From positions 248,001-312,000 of the forward strand of contig NZ_NEXX01000002.1 of NCBI RefSeq assembly GCF_002174125.1: a stretch of 64,000 nt of DNA, in the 5' to 3' direction. The translations under genes and the position numbers were made by a program. Of the stretch, positions 54,154 to 63,379 are shown one piece after another. Numbering within the stretch: the stretch's first letter is position 1; every line of letters starts with the position of its first letter. The notes beneath the pieces are model-generated. The model was given only the letters and a program-made list of their open reading frames with translations, was not told the DNA's origin and searched no databases. This stretch comes from Acinetobacter populi (lineage in GTDB: Bacteria; Pseudomonadota; Gammaproteobacteria; Pseudomonadales; Moraxellaceae).

Positions 54154-54939
54154 TTACCGATACACAATACCACCATCGGTCAAAATGGATTGACCAGTAA
54201 TATAATCTGAATCTTCGCTGGCAAGGAATGCAACCAATGCAGCAACATCATCAGGGGTTTCAACACGACCGAGGGCAATACCTGCCACGTATTTTTCATA
54301 GGTTGCGCCAATCGGTGCACCAGTGATTTCAGAGAAACGCTTGTCGATCTCAACCCACATATCTGTACCCACAATACCAGGACAATAGGCATTCACGGTA
54401 ATGCCAGAACTTGCATATTCTTTTGCAGCAGCTTGAGTTAATGCACGCACAGCAAATTTAGTTGATGAATAAACACCGAGTAAAGCAAAACCATCATGTC
54501 CTGCAATTGAACAGGCATTTACAATTTTACCTTTTTGTTTTAATGCTTGAAATTTCTTGGCTGCGGCCTGAATTCCCCATAACACACCACCGACATTAAT
54601 ATCAGTAATACGACGGAACTCTTCTGGGGTGACATCGCTTAAAGGCTGAACCTGTGCGATACCAGCATTATTAATAATAATGTCAAACCCACCCAAGGTG
54701 CTATAAGTATGTTCAATTGCTGCGGTAATCTGTTCAAGTTTACTAATATCCGCAACAAAAGTTGTTGCTTTGACATTCAAGGCTTCTACTTCTGCCTGTG
54801 TCGCATTTAATTTATCCTGATTCAAATCAACTAATGCAACATTTACCCCTTCTTCGGCAAGTCGTAGCGCAATGCCTCGACCAATGCCTTGTGCTGCACC
54901 TGTAACTAAAGCAACTTTTCCAGTTAATCCTCTTGGCAT
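54154..54939 (-). CDS. budC: Acetoin reductase / 2,3-butanediol dehydrogenase (SDR)
   Basis: Classical short-chain dehydrogenase of 261 residues, most like (S)-acetoin-forming diacetyl reductase/meso-2,3-butanediol dehydrogenase. The NAD motif is [19 protein letters not shown] is conserved, and the catalytic Ser-Tyr-Lys is in [20 protein letters not shown]. The insertion [24 protein letters not shown] (split) is typical of BudC/ButA. Oxidation of 2,3-butanediol to acetoin would feed the acetoin dehydrogenase encoded upstream on the same strand. ATG 54939 follows GAGAGCGAG. The exact stereospecificity is not evident. Confidence 0.85.
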
Positions 54940-55029: not shown

Positions 55030-56430
55030 TTAAATGTGAATTGCCCGTTGCATACTTGCCAAAATAGATTCATGCATGGCTTCGGATAAGGTTGGATGTG
55101 GAAAAATCACTTCAGCCAGACTTTCATCAGTGGCTTCAAGATGCTTGGCAATGGCAAAGCCCTGAATCTGTTCGGTCACTTCATGTCCAACCATATGTGC
55201 GCCGAGTAACTCCCCAGTTTCGCTATTGATGATGGTTTTAACAAAACCTTCGGCAACACCGAGCGCTAACGCCTTGCCATTGGCAGACAATGGAAATTTA
55301 CCAACTTGAATACGATATCCTTCTGCCTTGGCTTTTTGCTCGGTTAAACCAATACTCGCCACTTGCGGATGGGTAAAAATACAGCCTGGAATTTGAGTAC
55401 GATCCAATGCATGAACATGTTTGACACCAGCAATTTTTTCGACGCACAAAATTGCTTCATGACTAGCCTTATGCGCCAGACAAGGTGCGCCAGCAACATC
55501 ACCAATGGCATATACACCAACCACATTGGTTTTACACCATTGATCTGTTTTGATAAAGCCACGATCAAACTCAATACCCAAGGCTTCGAGTCCCAGATCA
55601 CTGGAATTAGGTCGTACACCAATCGCAGATAACACCCGATCAAATACCTGTGTTTCTACACCATTGGCGCCTTCAATTTCACATGTGACCTGATTATCCT
55701 GAACTGTCACAGCATTCACTACCGATTCAGTCAATATTTTCATGCCACGTTGTTCAAACTGCTTTTGCACATATTGAGCAACTTCAGCATCTTCAGTCGG
55801 TAAAATCTGTTTGGCAATATCAATCAAAGTCACTTCACAACCCAAGTCCTGATATAGACTGGCAAACTCGCTGCCAATTGCACCTGACCCAATCACCAGT
55901 AAAGATTTTGGTAATGCCTTTGGTACAAGCGCTTCCTTATAACTCCAGACGTATTCACCATCGACAGGCACTTGTGGCAAGGTTGCTGCCTTAGCACCTG
56001 TGGCAACAATAATATGCGGTGCGGAAAGTTTTTGAGTTTTACCCTCTGCATCGGTGAGTTGCAACTGTTCTTTAGCAATAAATTTTGCTTTGGCATTAAA
56101 TACTGTGACATTGTTTTTCTTTAACAAATGACCAATACCCTGTACCAGTTGTGCCGAGACCTGACGACTATGTTGGACCAGTTGACTCATATCAAAATCG
56201 ACTTGCGACACCTGAAAACCAAACTGCCCTGCATGTTGAATTTGATGTGCCAACTCTGCACCTGCAAGCAATGCCTTAGTCGGAATACAGCCCCAGTTAA
56301 GACAAATACCGCCTAAATGACTGGCTTCTACCACAGCGGTTTTTAGCCCGAGCTGGGCTGCACGAATTGCAGCCACATACCCACCAGGACCAGCACCAAT
56401 CACGATTAAATCAAATTGTGTGTCTGACAT
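55030..56430 (-). CDS. lpdA: Dihydrolipoyl dehydrogenase of the acetoin complex
   Basis: E3 component: reoxidises dihydrolipoyl groups on AcoC using FAD and NAD. 466 residues, standard. The N-terminal FAD motif is VIGAGPGGYVAAIRAAQLG (split), the redox disulfide GGICLNWGCIPTKALL, the NAD motif VIGSGAIGSEFASLYQDLG, and the dimer-interface HPTLSEAMHES with the catalytic His-Glu. It lies 10 bases after acoC, so it is the dedicated E3 rather than the pyruvate or 2-oxoglutarate complex copy. Confidence 0.95.
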   Translation of the reverse strand: MSDTQFDLIVIGAGPGGYVAAIRAAQLGLKTAVVEASHLGGICLNWGCIPTKALLAGAELAHQIQHAGQFGFQVSQVDFDMSQLVQHSRQVSAQLVQGIGHLLKKNNVTVFNAKAKFIAKEQLQLTDAEGKTQKLSAPHIIVATGAKAATLPQVPVDGEYVWSYKEALVPKALPKSLLVIGSGAIGSEFASLYQDLGCEVTLIDIAKQILPTEDAEVAQYVQKQFEQRGMKILTESVVNAVTVQDNQVTCEIEGANGVETQVFDRVLSAIGVRPNSSDLGLEALGIEFDRGFIKTDQWCKTNVVGVYAIGDVAGAPCLAHKASHEAILCVEKIAGVKHVHALDRTQIPGCIFTHPQVASIGLTEQKAKAEGYRIQVGKFPLSANGKALALGVAEGFVKTIINSETGELLGAHMVGHEVTEQIQGFAIAKHLEATDESLAEVIFPHPTLSEAMHESILASMQRAIHI

Positions 56431-56440
56431 GCTGATCCTC

Positions 56441-57997
56441 CTACACTAAAATTAACGCAGGATTTTCAACGAATTGTTTAAAACTCGCCAAGAATTTTGC
56501 ACCCACGGCACCATCAATCACCCGATGATCACAAGATAATGTAGCAGTGACGATCTGACGAATCACAATTTCACCGTTTTCCACCACAGTACGCTGTTCT
56601 GATGCACCGAGTGCCAAAATCGCACCTTGTGGCGGATTAATAATGGCATCAAACTGCTTGATACCCAACATGCCAAGATTGGAAATACTAAAGCTACCAC
56701 CCTGAAACTCGTCGGGACTTAACTTGCCAGTTTTGGCACGGGTTGCCAGATCACGCATTTCAGTGGAAATTTCTGCCAGAGATTTCTTGTTGGCAGCCTT
56801 GATAATTGGCGTAATCAAACCATTATCAATGGCAACCGCAACCGAAATATCAGCTTGGGAAAATTGCAGAATTTCCTGCTTTTCCTCATCGTATTGCACA
56901 TTGACCGCAGGGACTTTGATCAGTGCAGCACTGGCTGCTTTAATCAACATATCGTTAATTGACAATTTCACCTGCGGCACAGTGGCATTGATTTGTGCCC
57001 GTAACTGCTGGATTTCATCGACATTTAGATCGACAATTAAACGGAAATGCGGTGCATTGCGTTTGGCTGCCTGTAAACGCGAAGCAATGGCACGGCGCAT
57101 CCCATTCATAGCAATGGCAGTGACTGTTGCCGCTGGTGCAGATGGATTCTCCTGCCCTTCAGCTTGCACTACAGGTGGATTTTCACGTAAATATGCTGCT
57201 TCCACATCCTCTTTACACACTCGACCACGAGAACCCGAAGCACGGCAATCATGCAGATTGATGCCCCATTCCTTCGCCAGACGACGTGCCACAGGCGTTG
57301 CGGCAATCTGACTGTCATCAGCACTGGATTTGACAATTTTACCGCTCGCCTGATTTTTTACATCGGGCCAACTACCACCCGCCGATTGCACCGCTGCCTG
57401 AATATCGTTAACACTAATCCGATTTTCACGTCCTGTACCTGTTACCTTGGCAAGATTAACATTATATTTTTCTGCCAGTTTTAAGGCATGCGGCGTAGCA
57501 AATAACCCATCAGCAGCCTGATAACCCTGTAATTCCGACGGTACTCGATAGCCACCCTGTACCACAGACGCAGATGTTTTGGTCGCAATTTCTGCATTTT
57601 TTTGTACTGGCGCAGTCGTTGTTGTTCCTGCTGTTTCAGCGACTTTTGTTGGTTGCTGTGCAGGAGCAGCCTGTTCAGTTTTGGTAGGCTGTTCAGCAGT
57701 TTGAGTACCACCTAATGATTGCACATAGGCATCAATCTCGGCATCAGATACATCAGCATCGGCACAGACTGCGATTAACCCACCGACAGGTAGCGTATCG
57801 CCATCTTTTGCCAGAATTTTTCGCAAGGTACTATCAAAAGGTGCTTCCAGCACATTGACGATTTTTGTGGTTTCAATCTCACAAATTTCCTGTCCCTTAC
57901 TAAAGCTACTACCTTCCTGAATCAACCACTGGGCAATGGTGCCTTCTTCCATGGATAATCCCCATTTTGGGATTTCCAGTGTTTTAATCTCGCTCAT
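56441..57997 (-). CDS. acoC: Acetoin dehydrogenase E2 (dihydrolipoamide acetyltransferase) with two E3-binding domains
   Basis: AcoC transfers the acetyl group from lipoyl to CoA. In the 518 residues: a lipoyl domain (1-~80, Lys45 in EIETTKIV), an Ala/Gln/Thr linker, then two peripheral-subunit-binding domains instead of one. The first (about 167-203) reads ATPHALKLAEKYNVNLAKVTGTGREN and the second (233-269) ATPVARRLAKEWGINLHDCRASGSRGR (both split). The catalytic domain follows, with the HxxxDG motif in LSCDHRVIDGAVGAKF. It lies 1 base before acoB in reverse order of transcription and 10 bases before lpd. Two binding domains could hold E1 and E3 separately. Confidence 0.94.
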   Translation of the reverse strand: MSEIKTLEIPKWGLSMEEGTIAQWLIQEGSSFSKGQEICEIETTKIVNVLEAPFDSTLRKILAKDGDTLPVGGLIAVCADADVSDAEIDAYVQSLGGTQTAEQPTKTEQAAPAQQPTKVAETAGTTTTAPVQKNAEIATKTSASVVQGGYRVPSELQGYQAADGLFATPHALKLAEKYNVNLAKVTGTGRENRISVNDIQAAVQSAGGSWPDVKNQASGKIVKSSADDSQIAATPVARRLAKEWGINLHDCRASGSRGRVCKEDVEAAYLRENPPVVQAEGQENPSAPAATVTAIAMNGMRRAIASRLQAAKRNAPHFRLIVDLNVDEIQQLRAQINATVPQVKLSINDMLIKAASAALIKVPAVNVQYDEEKQEILQFSQADISVAVAIDNGLITPIIKAANKKSLAEISTEMRDLATRAKTGKLSPDEFQGGSFSISNLGMLGIKQFDAIINPPQGAILALGASEQRTVVENGEIVIRQIVTATLSCDHRVIDGAVGAKFLASFKQFVENPALILV

Positions 57998-57998
57998 C

Positions 57999-59018
57999 CT
58001 AAGCCTCCAGAGTTTTACGTACAGCCTGTTCGATACGTTCTACACTCGGCAACCACTCTTTTTCCAATACAGGTGAGAATGGCACAGGCGTGTGCGGTGG
58101 CGTGACCAGTTCAATCGGTGCTTTCAGATAGTTAAAGCCTTTTTGTGCAATCAGTGCAGCCACATCATGCGCAAAGCCACAACGAGCTGCCGATTCATCA
58201 ACAATGACCACACGTCCAGTTGAAGCAACGGATTCCAAAATACCCTCTTCATCCAGTGGTGAAATGGTACGTGGATCGACCACTTCGACTGAAATACCCT
58301 CTTTAGCCAGTTTATCGGCAACTTCATTGGCACGATGTACCATTAAACTTAAGGCAATAATGGTGACATCAGTCCCTTCACGGGTATAGTTCGCCACACC
58401 AAATGGAATGGTATAAGCCTCATCAGGTGCATCACCCTTGACGTCATATAACAGTTTATGTTCACAGAAGATCACTGGATCATCATCACGAATGGCTTGA
58501 ATCAATAGACCTTTTACATCATATGGATTTGATGGCACCACGACTTTCAAGCCGGGTACAGAGGCAAATACGTTATAAGGTGATTGTGAATGTTGCGCTG
58601 CGGCAGAAAAACCTGCACCGATCATGCCGCGCACCACCATGGGTGCTTTGGCCTTACCACCAAACATATAGCGGAATTTTGCGGCTTGGTTATACATCAT
58701 GTCATAGCAAACACCGTAAAAATCCATAAACATCAAGTCGGCAACCGGACGCAAACCTGTTGCTGCGGCACCTGCTGCCATCCCAATGATGGCAGATTCG
58801 GTAATTGGGGTATCAATTACCCGTTCTGAACCAAATTCGGTCCATAGACCTTTGGTGACGCCAAGTACACCACCAAAACCTTCTAACTTATTATCATCGG
58901 TATTTTTACCACCATGACCACCACGAACATCTTCACCCACCACAATGACGGCTGGATCACGACGCATTTCCAATTCGATGGCTTCTTTAATGGCATTTCG
59001 ATAGCTTTTAACTGGCAT
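57999..59018 (-). CDS. acoB: Acetoin dehydrogenase E1 beta subunit
   Basis: Beta subunit of the thiamin-diphosphate E1 component, forming a heterotetramer with AcoA. 339 residues. Family blocks: YRNAIKEAIELEMRRDP, GEDVRGGHGGKNTDDNKL, RVIDTPITESAIIGMAAGAA, and AAQHSQSPYNVFASVPGLKVV (with the His that contacts the cofactor). EHKLLYD and the C-terminal transketolase-type domain VEVVDPRTISPLDEE follow. It lies 14 bases after acoA. Confidence 0.95.
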   Translation of the reverse strand: MPVKSYRNAIKEAIELEMRRDPAVIVVGEDVRGGHGGKNTDDNKLEGFGGVLGVTKGLWTEFGSERVIDTPITESAIIGMAAGAAATGLRPVADLMFMDFYGVCYDMMYNQAAKFRYMFGGKAKAPMVVRGMIGAGFSAAAQHSQSPYNVFASVPGLKVVVPSNPYDVKGLLIQAIRDDDPVIFCEHKLLYDVKGDAPDEAYTIPFGVANYTREGTDVTIIALSLMVHRANEVADKLAKEGISVEVVDPRTISPLDEEGILESVASTGRVVIVDESAARCGFAHDVAALIAQKGFNYLKAPIELVTPPHTPVPFSPVLEKEWLPSVERIEQAVRKTLEA

Positions 59019-59032
59019 GATTTACTATTCCT

Positions 59033-59995
59033 TTAGTAAGACACATAAACGTCTGTAAGAAGTTGCGATGTTTCTGGATATTTTGCGGCGCGGGCTTTTG
59101 CCACGGCATCATCGACATTGGCTTTTGACTCAACATCAATCGCATCCAGTTTGGCTTCATCAATTTTTCCTTTGACTTTTTCACGGAAAATTTTTAATGG
59201 ATCCTTATTTTCCTTGACATAATCCAGCTCTTCTTTAGAACGGATCAAGCCCGGATCACCTTCAAAGTGCCCGTAGAAACGGTTGGTCACGGTTTCAATA
59301 ACACTTGGTCCTTCACCCCGACGAGCCCGTTCGATGGCGGCATTGGCGGCTTCATAGACTGCGAAAAAATCTGTGCCATCAACTTTTTGTGCTGGCATAC
59401 CAAACGCTGCTGCACGACCTGCAATGTCTTTGCTACCCACAGCATAGTCATGCGCGGTTCCTTCACCGAAGCCATTATTTTCAAACACAAAAACCACAGG
59501 CAGTTTAAGTACCACAGCCATATTCATGGCTTCAAAAGTCAAGCCCTGATTGGAACCACCATCACCTGTAAATGACAGCCCAACACCACCGGTTTTTAAG
59601 GTTTTGGCTGTCAATGCTGCGCCAATTGCCAAAGGAGGCCCACCGCCAACGATACCATTGGCACCTAACATGCCTTTATCCAGATCGGCAATATGCATGG
59701 AACCACCCTTACCACGACATAAACCATCATCTTTACCAAAAATTTCCAGCATCATGCCGTGAATATCACAACCTTTGGCAATACAGTGTCCATGTCCACG
59801 GTGGGTTGAAGTAATGTAATCCTTGTCGGTTAAATTCTCACAAATCCCGACAGCGACTGCTTCTTCTCCACTATATAAGTGAATAAAGCCAGGAATATCA
59901 CCTGTGTTATTTTCATCGTGAAGTCGATCTTCAAATTCACGAATATCACGCATACGTCGGTATGCAGTCAGCAATTGTTCTTCCGTTAATTGCAT
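59033..59995 (-). CDS. acoA: Acetoin dehydrogenase E1 alpha subunit
   Basis: Alpha subunit of the TPP-dependent acetoin:lipoamide oxidoreductase, which cleaves acetoin to acetaldehyde and acetyl-lipoyl. 320 residues. The TPP/magnesium motif GDG(x)nN is seen as SFTGDGGSNQG...ENNGFGEGT, preceded by THRGHGHCIAKG and GKGGSMHIADLDKGMLGAN. It is the first gene of the acoA-acoB-acoC-lpd-budC operon. ATG 59995 has AAGGA 8 bases upstream. Confidence 0.95.
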   Translation of the reverse strand: MQLTEEQLLTAYRRMRDIREFEDRLHDENNTGDIPGFIHLYSGEEAVAVGICENLTDKDYITSTHRGHGHCIAKGCDIHGMMLEIFGKDDGLCRGKGGSMHIADLDKGMLGANGIVGGGPPLAIGAALTAKTLKTGGVGLSFTGDGGSNQGLTFEAMNMAVVLKLPVVFVFENNGFGEGTAHDYAVGSKDIAGRAAAFGMPAQKVDGTDFFAVYEAANAAIERARRGEGPSVIETVTNRFYGHFEGDPGLIRSKEELDYVKENKDPLKIFREKVKGKIDEAKLDAIDVESKANVDDAVAKARAAKYPETSQLLTDVYVSY

Positions 59996-60050
59996 ATCAA
60001 TGATCCTTCTTTACTCAATTAAAAAGCAATGATTCATATTAAACTGGGTA

Positions 60051-60080
60051 TTTATAGATCCGCTTAAACACCCATGTCTT
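60051..60080 (-). promoter_or_regulatory. Possible sigma-70 promoter for acoA
   Basis: On the minus strand, AAGACA (60080-60075) and TATAAA (60056-60051) are separated by 18 bases, giving an expected start near 60044 and a ~50-base leader. No sigma-54 -24/-12 element (GG-N10-GC) is seen in the gap, in contrast to AcoR-controlled aco operons. The other parts of the 361-base acoA-lipA gap are very AT-rich, with no gene. Confidence 0.4.
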
Positions 60081-60356
60081 TATATAAATTTATTTTAAAT
60101 AAATAAGCTATTAGACTAAAAAAATATTTTTATAAAAATTATAATAAAAACCAGTAAAACAACGATTTAAAACACTTAAAATAATTGTTACTTTTTATTA
60201 TTTATCATTTACTTATAAAAACAAACCTTCAACCAACCTTTATTTAATATAATGATCTATTTAATTATTAAAAACCAATCTATAATGATTAAAAAATAGT
60301 TTGACATTATAATTAAATTTCGCTTTATTAGATATATATTTTAAAAGGAATTTAAA

Positions 60357-61442
60357 ATGTATCAATTATTAAATACAACGCCCGATATACAGCAACTTAA
60401 TAGGCAAAAAAATCTGCACTCTGCAATATTGCCTGCTGGCACACCAGTTGATGGAAATTCTGCACATAGCCAGCCAAAAACACAGCAAAATCATAATACA
60501 GGTATCAAATTACGTGGTGCAGAAAAAGTTGCCAGAATCCCGGTCAAAGTGATTCCAACTACAACTATTCCAGAAAAACCTCGCTGGATTCGTGCCAGAA
60601 TTAGTCAGCCTGAAGAAATTAAACGCATCAAGAATTTATTACGCCAACAAAAATTGCATACTGTATGTGAAGAAGCCGCCTGTCCAAACCTGCCACAATG
60701 TTTTGGTGGCGGCACAGCAACATTTATGATCATGGGCGATATCTGCACTCGCCGCTGTCCGTTTTGTGATGTGGCACATGGCCGGCCCAATGCGCTTGAT
60801 CCGGAAGAACCCCGCCATCTGGCAGAAACAGTGGCAAATTTAAAACTCAAATATGTGGTGATTACATCTGTTGATCGTGATGATCTATTAGATGGTGGAG
60901 CCCAGCATTTTGTTGAATGTATCAAGGAAATTCGTAAAAGTAGTCCCGATACTTTAATTGAAATTCTGGTGCCAGATTTTCGTGGACGACTAGACATCGC
61001 CCTTAATATTTTGGCGGAAACACCACCGGATGTGTTTAACCATAATATCGAAACCGTACCCAGACTTTACAAAGCCATGCGTCCTGGTTCGGATTATCAA
61101 CATTCACTTGATTTATTGAAAAAATTTAAAGCCCTACGTCCGGATTTAGTTACCAAATGCGGATTGATGGTTGGGCTAGGTGAAATCGAAGCGGAAGTTT
61201 TTGCACTGCTTAACGACCTAGATGATCACCATATCGATCTGGTCACGATTGGACAGTATTTGCAGCCGAGTAAATCGCATGCAGCCATTCACCGCTTTGT
61301 TTCTCTGGAAGAATTTAAACGCTATGAAAAGCATGGCAAGCAACTGAATTTTAAAAATATATGGAGTTCACCCATGGTTCGTTCCAGCTATTATGCAGAT
61401 CGGCAATATCATGGTGAATCCGCACCAGATTCGTTGGTTTAA
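60357..61442 (+). CDS. lipA: Lipoyl synthase, acetoin-cluster copy
   Basis: Radical-SAM enzyme that inserts two sulfurs into octanoyl groups to make lipoate, here most likely for AcoC. Both iron-sulfur sites are present: the auxiliary cluster motif [12 protein letters not shown] and the SAM cluster CTRRCPFC, plus the C-terminal RSSY motif (MVRSSYYAD). At 361 residues it is about 40 longer than usual because of an N-terminal Gln/Asn-rich extension before [18 protein letters not shown] precedes the ATG. It is divergent from the aco operon, and a house-keeping lipA with lipB would be expected elsewhere in the genome. Confidence 0.93.
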
Positions 61443-61655
61443 TTTTGATCAAATTTGCCAATGTATCCCTATCCAGTTTTTGTTTGAATAGGTCTGTATC
61501 GCTCTCTTAGTAAAATTAAATTGCAAAACGATAAAACTTGCTACAGCAATCATACATTGATCGACTATCGTTAAATTTGTGATTTATCCTAATATGTTAA
61601 CCTCTTCACGACTCTACGGATTTGGAGTCGTCAATCAGTGATCAGGAAGTATTGT

Positions 61656-62759
61656 ATGGATACTCAACGTTCTAAATCACAGTCTTATACCCAGCAGCCT
61701 ACACATCATTACACGCCTTTGGCAAATGTTGAAGCAGCACCTATTTTAGCCCTGACGCAAGACTGGCAATCTTCTGTGTTTGGCAATGCAATCGCTTTAA
61801 ACCAATCCAGTCTAGCCGATATTGCCGAAGATGCCGGTATGGCAATTGGCGTTACCGATCCTTGTGGCACGTTACTCTGGACATGGAGCAGCCGGGCAAT
61901 GCGCACTTCTGCCGAACAGGTACACTTTGTTGAAGGTGGTCAATGGGATTTGCAATCTGTTGGCACCAATGCTCTGGGATTGGCATTGCATACACACACC
62001 ACAAGCTGTGTCTATTCTCACGAAAATGCCATGCAAAGCGTTCGAGACTGGGTCTGTTATGCGACACCCATTATCGATAAAATGACCAAACAATATTATG
62101 GCATTGTCAACTTATCGACCAAGTATAAAAAGCACAGTATTCTAGGTAAACTTGCGGTTGAACGCTGCTCAGATATTATTCTGGGAACCTTGCAGCTGAT
62201 TAAACAGGACCGTCTGATCATTCATGCTTTTGGCACACCACAAATATCGTTTAATCATCAACCTTTAACACTTACGCACCGGCAAATAGAAATCCTGTGT
62301 ATTCTGGCCCTTTGCCCTGCCGGAATTAGTCTGGATGAATTGCATTATGCCTTGTATGGTGATCGTGAGGTCAGTAGTAAAACCTTAAAATCAGAAATTT
62401 CCCAGTTGCGTCATCTATTAAATGATCAGATTCAATCCCGTTCCTATCGTTTGACCTGTGAAGTACAATGTGACTTTATCACTGCCGAGCAATCACTTAA
62501 TTCAGGCTGCTTCTCGACGGCATGTAATCTATATAAGGGAAATTTTTTATCTAAATCGGATAGTCCTTTTTTAAGAGCATGGCGCGAATCCTTTGATGCC
62601 AGACTCAGCTATCATATTCATCAATCACATGATGTCGAACAATTACTCGCGCTGGTACAACGAGCACCCGACCGTATAGATGCAGTCGAGCGTTTACTGG
62701 ATCTTTTACCTGTCAATAGTCCGTATCGGGATAAAATCGCTGCACTTTTGATGCTATAG
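61656..62759 (+). CDS. GAF-winged-helix transcriptional regulator, probable acetoin regulator
   Basis: An unusual 367-residue regulator. Residues ~45-190 form a GAF sensor like that of AcoR activators: GMAIGVTDPCGTLLWTWSSR, then GGQWDLQSVGTNALGLALHT and WVCYATPIIDKMTKQYYGIV. Instead of the AAA+ sigma-54 domain, residues ~215-300 hold an OmpR/SARP-like winged helix (LTLTHRQIEILCILALCPAG, then SSKTLKSEISQLRHLLND). A C-terminal helical region follows (LYKGNFLSKSDSPFLRAW), resembling a short BTAD-type repeat. By position and GAF type it probably senses acetoin or butanediol and controls the aco operon and lipA. ATG 61656 has AGGAAG upstream. Confidence 0.8.
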   Translation: MDTQRSKSQSYTQQPTHHYTPLANVEAAPILALTQDWQSSVFGNAIALNQSSLADIAEDAGMAIGVTDPCGTLLWTWSSRAMRTSAEQVHFVEGGQWDLQSVGTNALGLALHTHTTSCVYSHENAMQSVRDWVCYATPIIDKMTKQYYGIVNLSTKYKKHSILGKLAVERCSDIILGTLQLIKQDRLIIHAFGTPQISFNHQPLTLTHRQIEILCILALCPAGISLDELHYALYGDREVSSKTLKSEISQLRHLLNDQIQSRSYRLTCEVQCDFITAEQSLNSGCFSTACNLYKGNFLSKSDSPFLRAWRESFDARLSYHIHQSHDVEQLLALVQRAPDRIDAVERLLDLLPVNSPYRDKIAALLML

Positions 62760-62811
62760 CTCACCCCTTCCATGCACATGACTGGAAAATCCGGATGACA
62801 TGGCATGGATC

Positions 62812-62834
62812 ATTATCCAAGATATATGGATAAT
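62812..62834. repeat. Inverted repeat after the GAF regulator gene
   Basis: ATTATCCA/TGGATAAT (62812-62819 with 62827-62834) with a 7-base loop, 53 bases past the regulator stop. No T-run follows, so it is a doubtful terminator. It may be a protein-binding palindrome just upstream of the rpsF promoter. Confidence 0.35.
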
Positions 62835-62870
62835 CCATTCTCTATTCAGATAAAATCAAACATGTTTTAC

Positions 62871-62899
62871 TTGAAATTTACTGTCAAATTCATTAAAAT
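62871..62899 (+). promoter_or_regulatory. Sigma-70 promoter of the rpsF operon
   Basis: -35 TTGAAA (62871-62876), 17-base spacer, -10 TAAAAT (62894-62899), followed by the GC-rich CGCCCTCGC that often marks stringently controlled ribosomal promoters. The expected start is near 62906, giving an ~87-base leader before rpsF. Confidence 0.75.
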
Positions 62900-62919
62900 T
62901 CGCCCTCGCACTTATGCGA

Positions 62920-62992
62920 CACAACTATTTTGGTTGTGACTCCTTGCTTCTGACACATTGTCAGGGGCTGTTTAAACCGTAAGGAGCTGACA
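62920..62992 (+). promoter_or_regulatory. Structured rpsF leader, candidate S6:S18 autoregulatory element
   Basis: The leader can form a hairpin CACAAC/GTTGTG (62920-62938). A second stem, CTCCTT (62940-62945) with AAGGAG (62981-62986), would hide the rpsF ribosome binding site. Inside it lies a small hairpin CTGACA/TGTCAG (62950-62964), and CCG at 62977-62979 lies next to the closing stem. Known for the family: an S6:S18 complex binds a CCG-containing leader structure in many bacteria and represses its own operon. The assignment here is by inspection only. Confidence 0.5.
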
Positions 62993-63379
62993 ATGCGTCA
63001 CTACGAAATCGTGCTTTTGGTACATCCAGACCAAAGCGATCAGGTTGTGGGTATGGTTGAACGCTATATCGCACAAATCAAAGAAGCCGGTGGTCAAATC
63101 CATCGTTTAGAAGATTGGGGCCGTCGCCAATTGGCTTACCCAATTAACAAAATTCACAAAGCACACTACATTTTAATGAATGTTGAATGTGGTCAAACTA
63201 CGCTTGATGAATTAGAAGAATTATTCCGTTATAACGACGCAATCATTCGTAATATTATCATTCGTCGTGAACATGCGATTACTGAAGAATCTTTATTGGC
63301 TAAGAGTGCTGAAGAAAAACGTGCCCGTAAGGCGCAACGTGAAGAAGCACAACAAGCTCAAGAATCTGTTGAAGGATAA
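62993..63379 (+). CDS. rpsF: 30S ribosomal protein S6
   Basis: Ribosomal protein of the small-subunit platform that binds 16S rRNA with S18. 128 residues, including an Ala/Gln/Glu-rich C-terminal tail ([18 protein letters not shown]). The fold starts [18 protein letters not shown] and includes [19 protein letters not shown] and [15 protein letters not shown] lies just upstream and may be sequestered in the leader structure. First gene of rpsF-rpsR-rplI. Confidence 0.97.

Follow-up and report, generated by a model that had tools for sequence, protein, structure and literature searches.

The gene at 61656..62759 of the window (the whole stretch of Acinetobacter populi DNA analysed here, 64,000 nucleotides) encodes a regulator in which a GAF sensor part is joined to a SARP-like DNA-binding part, next to a complete aco operon. 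We consider it probable that this regulator is a one-component, SARP-like activator whose predicted operator drives the lipA-like gene and the regulator gene and, most likely, acoABC, with no need for sigma-54. The finding is sound, and it is more general than the sequence-only reading that was followed up here, which had seen a hybrid of an AcoR-type GAF sensor and a winged helix at an acetoin operon. The regulator gene and its parts are located as follows.

61656..62759, plus strand: GAF-SARP-type regulator gene, 367 aa (open reading frame, profile matches, model and structure comparison)
61755..62204, plus strand: GAF sensor part of the DhaR/AcoR type, residues 34-183 (4lrx match over 12-183; partial DhaR match over 55-161)
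62205..62471, plus strand: OmpR/SARP-type winged helix, about residues 184-272 (Trans_reg_C, model, structure match)
62472..62756, plus strand: BTAD-like helical part, about residues 273-367 (AfsR and EmbR aligned over 184-367)

The ATG at 61656 is preceded by AGGAAG, and a GTG at 61638 is another possible start. The AcoR-style GAF signature that had been read in the N-terminal half is present. NCBIfam DhaR matched in part over residues 55-161 (E 3.5e-11), and residues 12-183 of an AlphaFold2 model (built on a 34-sequence alignment; mean pLDDT 83.6, pTM 0.62) superpose on E. coli DhaR(N), 4lrx, with Z 20.3 and an rmsd of 2.6 Å over 170 residues. We take the likeness of this part to AcoR to rest on the motif. 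For the C-terminal half, Pfam Trans_reg_C matched residues 202-261 at E 2.7e-4 and 21.4 bits, below the cut-off of 26.2, and model residues 184-367 superpose on the SARP parts of AfsR (8k60; Z 14.4, 183 residues, 4.8 Å) and EmbR (2ff4; Z 13.0, 184 residues, 5.3 Å), which bears out an OmpR/SARP-like winged helix in place of the sigma-54 parts. The AAA+ and Fis domains are missing, as had been claimed, with no such model found in the protein by Pfam or NCBIfam and none in the structure model. The C-terminal part, previously called short and BTAD-like, is BTAD-like by its fold match but not short, with about 95 residues and six helices of at least 4 residues in the AlphaFold2 model; the Pfam BTAD model matched 0 of the 34 members of the regulator alignment at E 0.01. 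A sequence search of solved structures with the regulator gave nothing significant. Residues T243, L244, K245 and S249 of the recognition helix are identical in 45 of 45 aligned rows, as expected if all of these proteins read the same site.

The regulator's position next to a complete aco operon held up, with the following genes and sites as neighbours.

60357..61442, plus strand: lipoyl synthase (lipA-like), first gene downstream of the predicted operator (TIGR00510, 394 bits)
59033..59995, minus strand: acoA, E1 alpha (profile matches)
57999..59018, minus strand: acoB, E1 beta (profile matches)
56441..57997, minus strand: acoC, E2 (profile matches)
55030..56430, minus strand: dihydrolipoyl dehydrogenase, E3 (profile matches)
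54154..54936, minus strand: acetoin reductase / butanediol dehydrogenase (SDR; TIGR02415, 357 bits)
60222..60239, plus strand: predicted operator CAAACCT-TCAA-CCAACCT, two heptamers 11 bp apart (one of two exact sites in the A. populi genome)
60248..60253, plus strand: TATAAT, a -10-like element starting 8 bp after the operator, toward lipA and the regulator gene
60109..60122, minus strand: conserved acoA-side box TTTTTAGTCTAATA, 14 bases, a possible acoA -10 region without a visible -35

An Rfam scan of 59900-63100 gave no match. The lipA-like gene has a longer N-terminus (60357-60560 region), with 361 aa compared to 328 aa in its A. pittii counterpart.

A relative of the regulator is present in 103 of 119 sampled Acinetobacter genomes, so the protein is no chance fusion. 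The aco-linked branch A shares 54-100% identity with the window regulator, one copy 50%, and acoA adjoins it in all 39 intact genus loci with long flanks, with lipA in between in 37 of them and not in the other two, L071 and L072. A close acoA (at least 87% identity) occurs in 41 of the 119 genomes, exactly the 41 with a branch-A regulator. In G109 the regulator (on a 3.4-kb contig) and acoA are on separate contigs, and G103 has only an acoA-like match of 53%, with no regulator relative. Branch B is 44-51% identical to the window regulator and adjoins an aldehyde dehydrogenase gene in all 22 genus loci examined (20 retrieved for the branch plus L004 and L069; extra third copies or fragments in G048, G061, G079 and G115 were left out). 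In A. populi itself, the branch-B neighbour is ExaC acetaldehyde dehydrogenase by NCBIfam (968.9 bits, cut-off 900), and the dehydrogenases at other branch-B loci were recognised by their similarity to this ExaC. The GAF-SARP regulator is not peculiar to acetoin, as the branch found more often adjoins an aldehyde dehydrogenase gene. The earlier claim of a distinct control of acetoin catabolism stands for the domains, the SARP likeness, the missing sigma-54 parts and the aco link, all kept in the genus, but not for acetoin specificity. Acetoin cleavage releases acetaldehyde, and through it branches A and B may serve a single pathway. A broken branch-A regulator (L073:7690-8699) was also observed, in a genome without a close acoA and with no aco genes in 17 kb.

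The predicted operator was found by aligning 40 acoA upstream regions, which share one strongly conserved block. Its consensus is CMAACCT-N4-CMAACCT, with the branch-A form CAAACCT-N4-CCAACCT on the lipA strand. Among 41 branch-A gaps (the window, 39 genus loci and L125; G109 was left out for its contig split), 35 were exact at period 11 and 6 had one mismatch, and the mean was 0.15 mismatches; other periods between 8 and 15 gave means of 2.05-4.78. Markov resamples of the window gap (n = 2000) contained an exact site in 0 cases, one with one mismatch in 1 and one with at most three mismatches in 94. Branch-B gaps (n = 22) gave 20 exact sites, 1 with one mismatch and 1 with two. Sites were weaker in the 13 gaps from outside Acinetobacter, with 1 exact, 7 with one mismatch, 2 with two and 3 with three; L126 (two mismatches) and L127 (none) are Acinetobacter loci counted in neither of these two sets.

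The A. populi genome (3.69 Mb) holds exactly two exact sites, at the window gap and at the paralogue/exaC gap. The listing of exact genus matches covers 150 sites in 95 of the 101 genomes that have any; a regulator gene is at most 3.5 kb away from 121 of these sites and not nearby for the other 29. Nearly all stray matches listed differ in the spacer or the second heptamer, and 115 of the 116 matches listed with spacer TTNN and second heptamer CCAACCT are near a regulator gene. The 16 genomes without a regulator match contributed five listed sites, one of them (G106) of operator type; it lies inside a predicted hydrolase gene and was rejected as a chance match. A backwards control pattern had 0 exact matches in the A. 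populi genome but matches in 75 of 119 genus genomes, and it is not an independent control because the operator itself matches backwards in 17 of the 22 branch-B gaps. In A. pittii, a second exact operator (L191:4154-4171) lies 66 bp upstream of an alpha/beta hydrolase gene that adjoins a branch-B regulator.

The arrangement of operator and -10-like element follows that of SARP promoters, at which direct repeats stand 11 or 22 bp apart with the 3' repeat 8 bp from the -10 element (available text of PMC10936776), heptamers in 11-bp units being classical (available text of PMC10972967). The predicted operator of the window has this layout in heptamers, 11-bp units and the 8 bp to the -10. Across the 41 branch-A loci, the best TATAAT-like hexamer at 5-12 bp after the operator lies at 8 bp in 21, at 9 bp in 11 and at 5-6 bp in 9. 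Together, the repeat layout and the fold indicate a mechanism of the SARP-like, main-sigma class. With TATAAT 8 bp beyond the operator, the most direct targets would be lipA and the regulator gene; in L071 and L072 the operator faces the regulator gene itself.

On the other side, the box TTTTTAGTCTAATA lies 113 bp upstream of the acoA start in the window. It occurs exactly once in the A. populi genome and is near-identical in 40 of 40 aligned loci, with GGTCTAATA in L040 and a deviation in the T run of L049. The distance from the operator to the last nine bases of the box is 103-105 bp in 40 of 41 loci, which are related to each other and are not 41 independent observations, and 82 bp in L072, about two helical turns less. 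In 15 representatives less than 75% identical to each other, the DNA between box and operator averages 49% identity (ungapped). Without L071 and L072 (13 loci), the standard deviation was 0.8 bp for operator to box, 12.3 bp for operator to lipA and 6.9 bp for box to acoA; with them (15 loci), the values were 5.5, 106.9 and 21.8 bp, respectively. This near-fixed operator-box distance is a sign that the operator-bound protein also works on acoA, and acoABC is most likely activated from the same operator as lipA. The putative control of acoA rests on the conserved spacing and the co-occurrence of the genes. Against it, the operator faces away from acoA, and SARPs are not known to act over 100 bp. 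A look by eye through the aligned gaps showed no second operator facing acoA.

A survey of the GAF plus SARP-type winged helix pair across genomes, as the sequence-only reading had suggested, revealed a conserved family with relatives in several phyla. The alignment query matched 24 of the 119 genomes sampled in the family, which fall in 2 of 16 genera (E 1e-15), and 3 of 293, 7 of 369 and 5 of 398 in the order, class and phylum samples (E 1e-30), with the A. populi genome included in each count. An aldehyde dehydrogenase lies within a few kb in 13 of 15 loci from outside Acinetobacter, three of these loci being from one genome. The two loci without such a dehydrogenase nearby, L128 and L130, were scanned separately for the operator. 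In L128, from a gammaproteobacterium, the relative lies between pqqC/pqqE-like genes and a PQQ-type alcohol dehydrogenase (named by eye from translations), with one-mismatch operator-like repeats shortly upstream of the pqqC-like (2646) and dehydrogenase (6213) genes; no such repeat was found in L130. A plasmid collection added relatives over 75-87% of the query from Deinococcus (39.7%), Mycobacterium/Mycolicibacterium (33-34%), Nocardia (34%) and Streptomyces (31%). Among five of these plasmid loci, an annotated aldehyde dehydrogenase is near in L196 and L199, L198 has no annotation, and the operator scan gave no site in these three. The L195 relative (Deinococcus aetherius) adjoins an ABC transporter, and an exact operator starts 143 bp upstream of its gene. 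In Mycolicibacterium chubuense NBB4, the GAF-SARP relative (L197:4794-6032) adjoins a particulate-type monooxygenase cluster, and a one-mismatch operator site (9278) lies 131 bp upstream of a further monooxygenase gene.

In a maximum-likelihood tree of 45 rows, branch A forms a single clade with support 100/100, next to branch B and one relative from another genus of the family, and the other relatives fall outside. The root is a midpoint only, and a long-branch warning applies to the outer rows. The rows had been thinned from 79 to 45 at 93% similarity, with stops written as X; the broken copy L073 was left out of alignment A1 and the tree, and L130, with one stop, was left out of the tree. 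Outside branch A, most relatives neighbour exaC-like genes, so the link to aco looks derived, and the aco-linked branch looks like one derived clade. Positions 99, 124 and 152 (window numbering), all within the GAF part, differ between the branches: branch B has E, H and D there (at least 14 of 15 rows), as do all 12 outer rows, and branch A has T, N and N (at least 17 of 18 rows), the window regulator having L at 99. These branch-specific residues may mean that the aco branch has switched ligand, perhaps from acetaldehyde to acetoin.

Sigma-54 promoters carry the -24/-12 consensus TGGCACG-N4-TTGCW. Scanning the acoA-lipA gap 59996-60356 with this consensus at up to 3 mismatches gave no match, in agreement with the statement made from the sequence that the aco operon shows no sigma-54 element; over the whole window, the scan gave 119 matches versus 110 expected. 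A 662-aa sigma-54 activator with a GAF part on contig 6 was rejected as the aco regulator, as it adjoins acetophenone carboxylase-related genes and not aco.

The gene is not wholly new. Its orthologue by gene order in A. baumannii ATCC 17978, A1S_1697, beside lipA and acoA, is in print as an acoR-like putative activator, and A. baumannii relatives are 62.8% identical to the window regulator. The available part of PMC6595428 describes a cluster with A1S_1697 as gene 1, lipoyl synthase as gene 2, acoA onwards and AcoN as gene 10. A1S_1697 is called homologous to the activator acoR there; its transcript was measured and responded neither to light nor to AcoN loss, and this part of the paper mentions neither the missing sigma-54 parts nor an architecture, operator or mutant of A1S_1697. 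AcoN is presented as a negative regulator that is antagonised by the photoreceptor BlsA and whose deletion alone derepresses acoA-C more than 100-fold (available part of PMC6595428). An annotated A. baumannii record filed as a plasmid (L194) has the same gene order and an exact operator, gene 1 being the regulator orthologue and gene 10 coding for a sigma-54-dependent Fis family regulator. From this gene order, A1S_1697 appears to be a GAF-SARP protein and AcoN a sigma-54-type regulator. A separate AcoR with sigma-54 promoters, which the sequence-only reading had named as evidence against itself, thus has a partial counterpart in the A. baumannii AcoN, but AcoN acts negatively there. A repressing sigma-54 activator would be odd. 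The AcoN-type gene (L188:5264-6535; L194:1289-2560) adjoins genes for an MBL-fold hydrolase and a sulfide-quinone-reductase-like protein, a setting reminiscent of FisR. A literature search found no description of the GAF-SARP architecture.

The A. baumannii genes most strongly induced by ethanol are A1S_2102, an aldehyde dehydrogenase (13.2-fold), and A1S_2098, an ethanol dehydrogenase (12.6-fold), in the available text of PMC2848557. In A. pittii (G004), with the same gene order, a branch-B regulator stands next to the dehydrogenase. If A1S_2102 corresponds to that exaC, as the A. pittii gene order would suggest, this induction agrees with activation at the sister site.

The sequence shows the architecture, the conserved repeats, the conserved spacing and the co-occurrence, and we infer the binding, the ligand, the sign of control, the polymerase contact and the direct action on acoA. 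The N-terminal GAF part would sense a small pathway metabolite, either acetoin or the acetaldehyde from its cleavage. The C-terminal SARP-type winged helix would bind both heptamers at 60222-60239, probably as a side-by-side pair, and the BTAD-like part would contact RNA polymerase with the main sigma factor, as judged from AfsR. Expression of lipA and the regulator gene would respond most directly, with acoABC most likely activated from the same operator. We regard it as rather unlikely that the regulator controls only its own unit, lipA plus the regulator gene, and that acoABC is under others such as the sigma-54-type AcoN. Such an arrangement would suit the TATAAT on the lipA side, the operator facing the regulator itself in L071 and L072, and the more than 100-fold rise of acoA-C upon AcoN deletion (available part of PMC6595428). 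However, coupling to acoA is suggested by the 103-105 bp that separate operator and acoA box in 40 of 41 loci and by the joint occurrence in 41 of 119 genomes, and the AcoN relative nearest to it in the A. populi genome is on another contig than aco.

A repressor that leaves the operator once acetoin or acetaldehyde binds appears improbable. Bound at this site, a protein would also occlude the -35 region, and the ethanol induction of the sister genes (available text of PMC2848557) would fit derepression too. Direct repeats of 11 bp that keep the distance to the -10 element published for SARPs fit an activator, however, and the BTAD-like part has been retained. Elsewhere, aco operons are under AcoR control, which, with the DhaR-like GAF part, could suggest that the protein is an AcoR-type sigma-54 activator in decay, its ATPase lost and little of its function left. 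This is largely excluded and very improbable: the SARP-like fold of the C-terminal half is complete and conserved, relatives are found in several phyla, and the operator is kept across the genus.

The activator proposed here combines features of several known systems. With the SARP family (AfsR, EmbR, ActII-ORF4), it has the winged helix, the BTAD-like helices and the 11-bp repeats in common, and by analogy it would fit the use of the main sigma factor. Its SARP part is C-terminal behind a GAF sensor instead of N-terminal, it lacks a Pfam BTAD match, and it is found in Gammaproteobacteria next to catabolic genes. With the DhaR/AcoR sigma-54 activators, it has the N-terminal GAF part in common through the DhaR fold match, and the exaC-linked branch B also keeps the N-terminal SSWQRS motif; the window regulator lacks the AAA+ ATPase and the Fis helix-turn-helix, and 59996-60356 lacks a -24/-12 promoter. 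Unlike OmpR/PhoB response regulators, it has no receiver domain match, with the GAF part in that position instead.

Our results point to a largely overlooked switch for alcohol, aldehyde and acetoin breakdown. Tentatively, and with confidence a little short of even, we propose that GAF-SARP proteins are cross-phylum one-component activators (Pseudomonadota, Actinomycetota, Deinococcota), mostly of ethanol, acetaldehyde and acetoin catabolism, many of which would read an approximate CCAACCT direct repeat through main-sigma promoters. At the aco locus, the operator would drive lipA and the regulator gene close by and acoABC over a 104-bp spacer in helical phase, which is not a known mode of activation for SARPs. 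If true, SARP-type activation would extend to catabolic regulation and beyond Actinobacteria, Acinetobacter acetoin and ethanol use without an AcoR-type sigma-54 activator beside the genes would be explained, and a defined operator and target set would be at hand for direct tests. The predicted operator may also be of use as a building block for acetoin or acetaldehyde sensors.

Both branches were also observed on Acinetobacter plasmids. An aco cluster with a branch-A regulator and an exact operator lies between insertion sequences on a plasmid of Acinetobacter sp. YWS30-1 (L193:3538-13026), one of 13 listed plasmid records with a regulator match of 58-61%. A plasmid of A. lwoffii (L200:4141-8721) carries an aldehyde dehydrogenase, a branch-B regulator, an iron-type alcohol dehydrogenase and an exact operator, and 14 listed A. 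lwoffii plasmid records have a regulator match.
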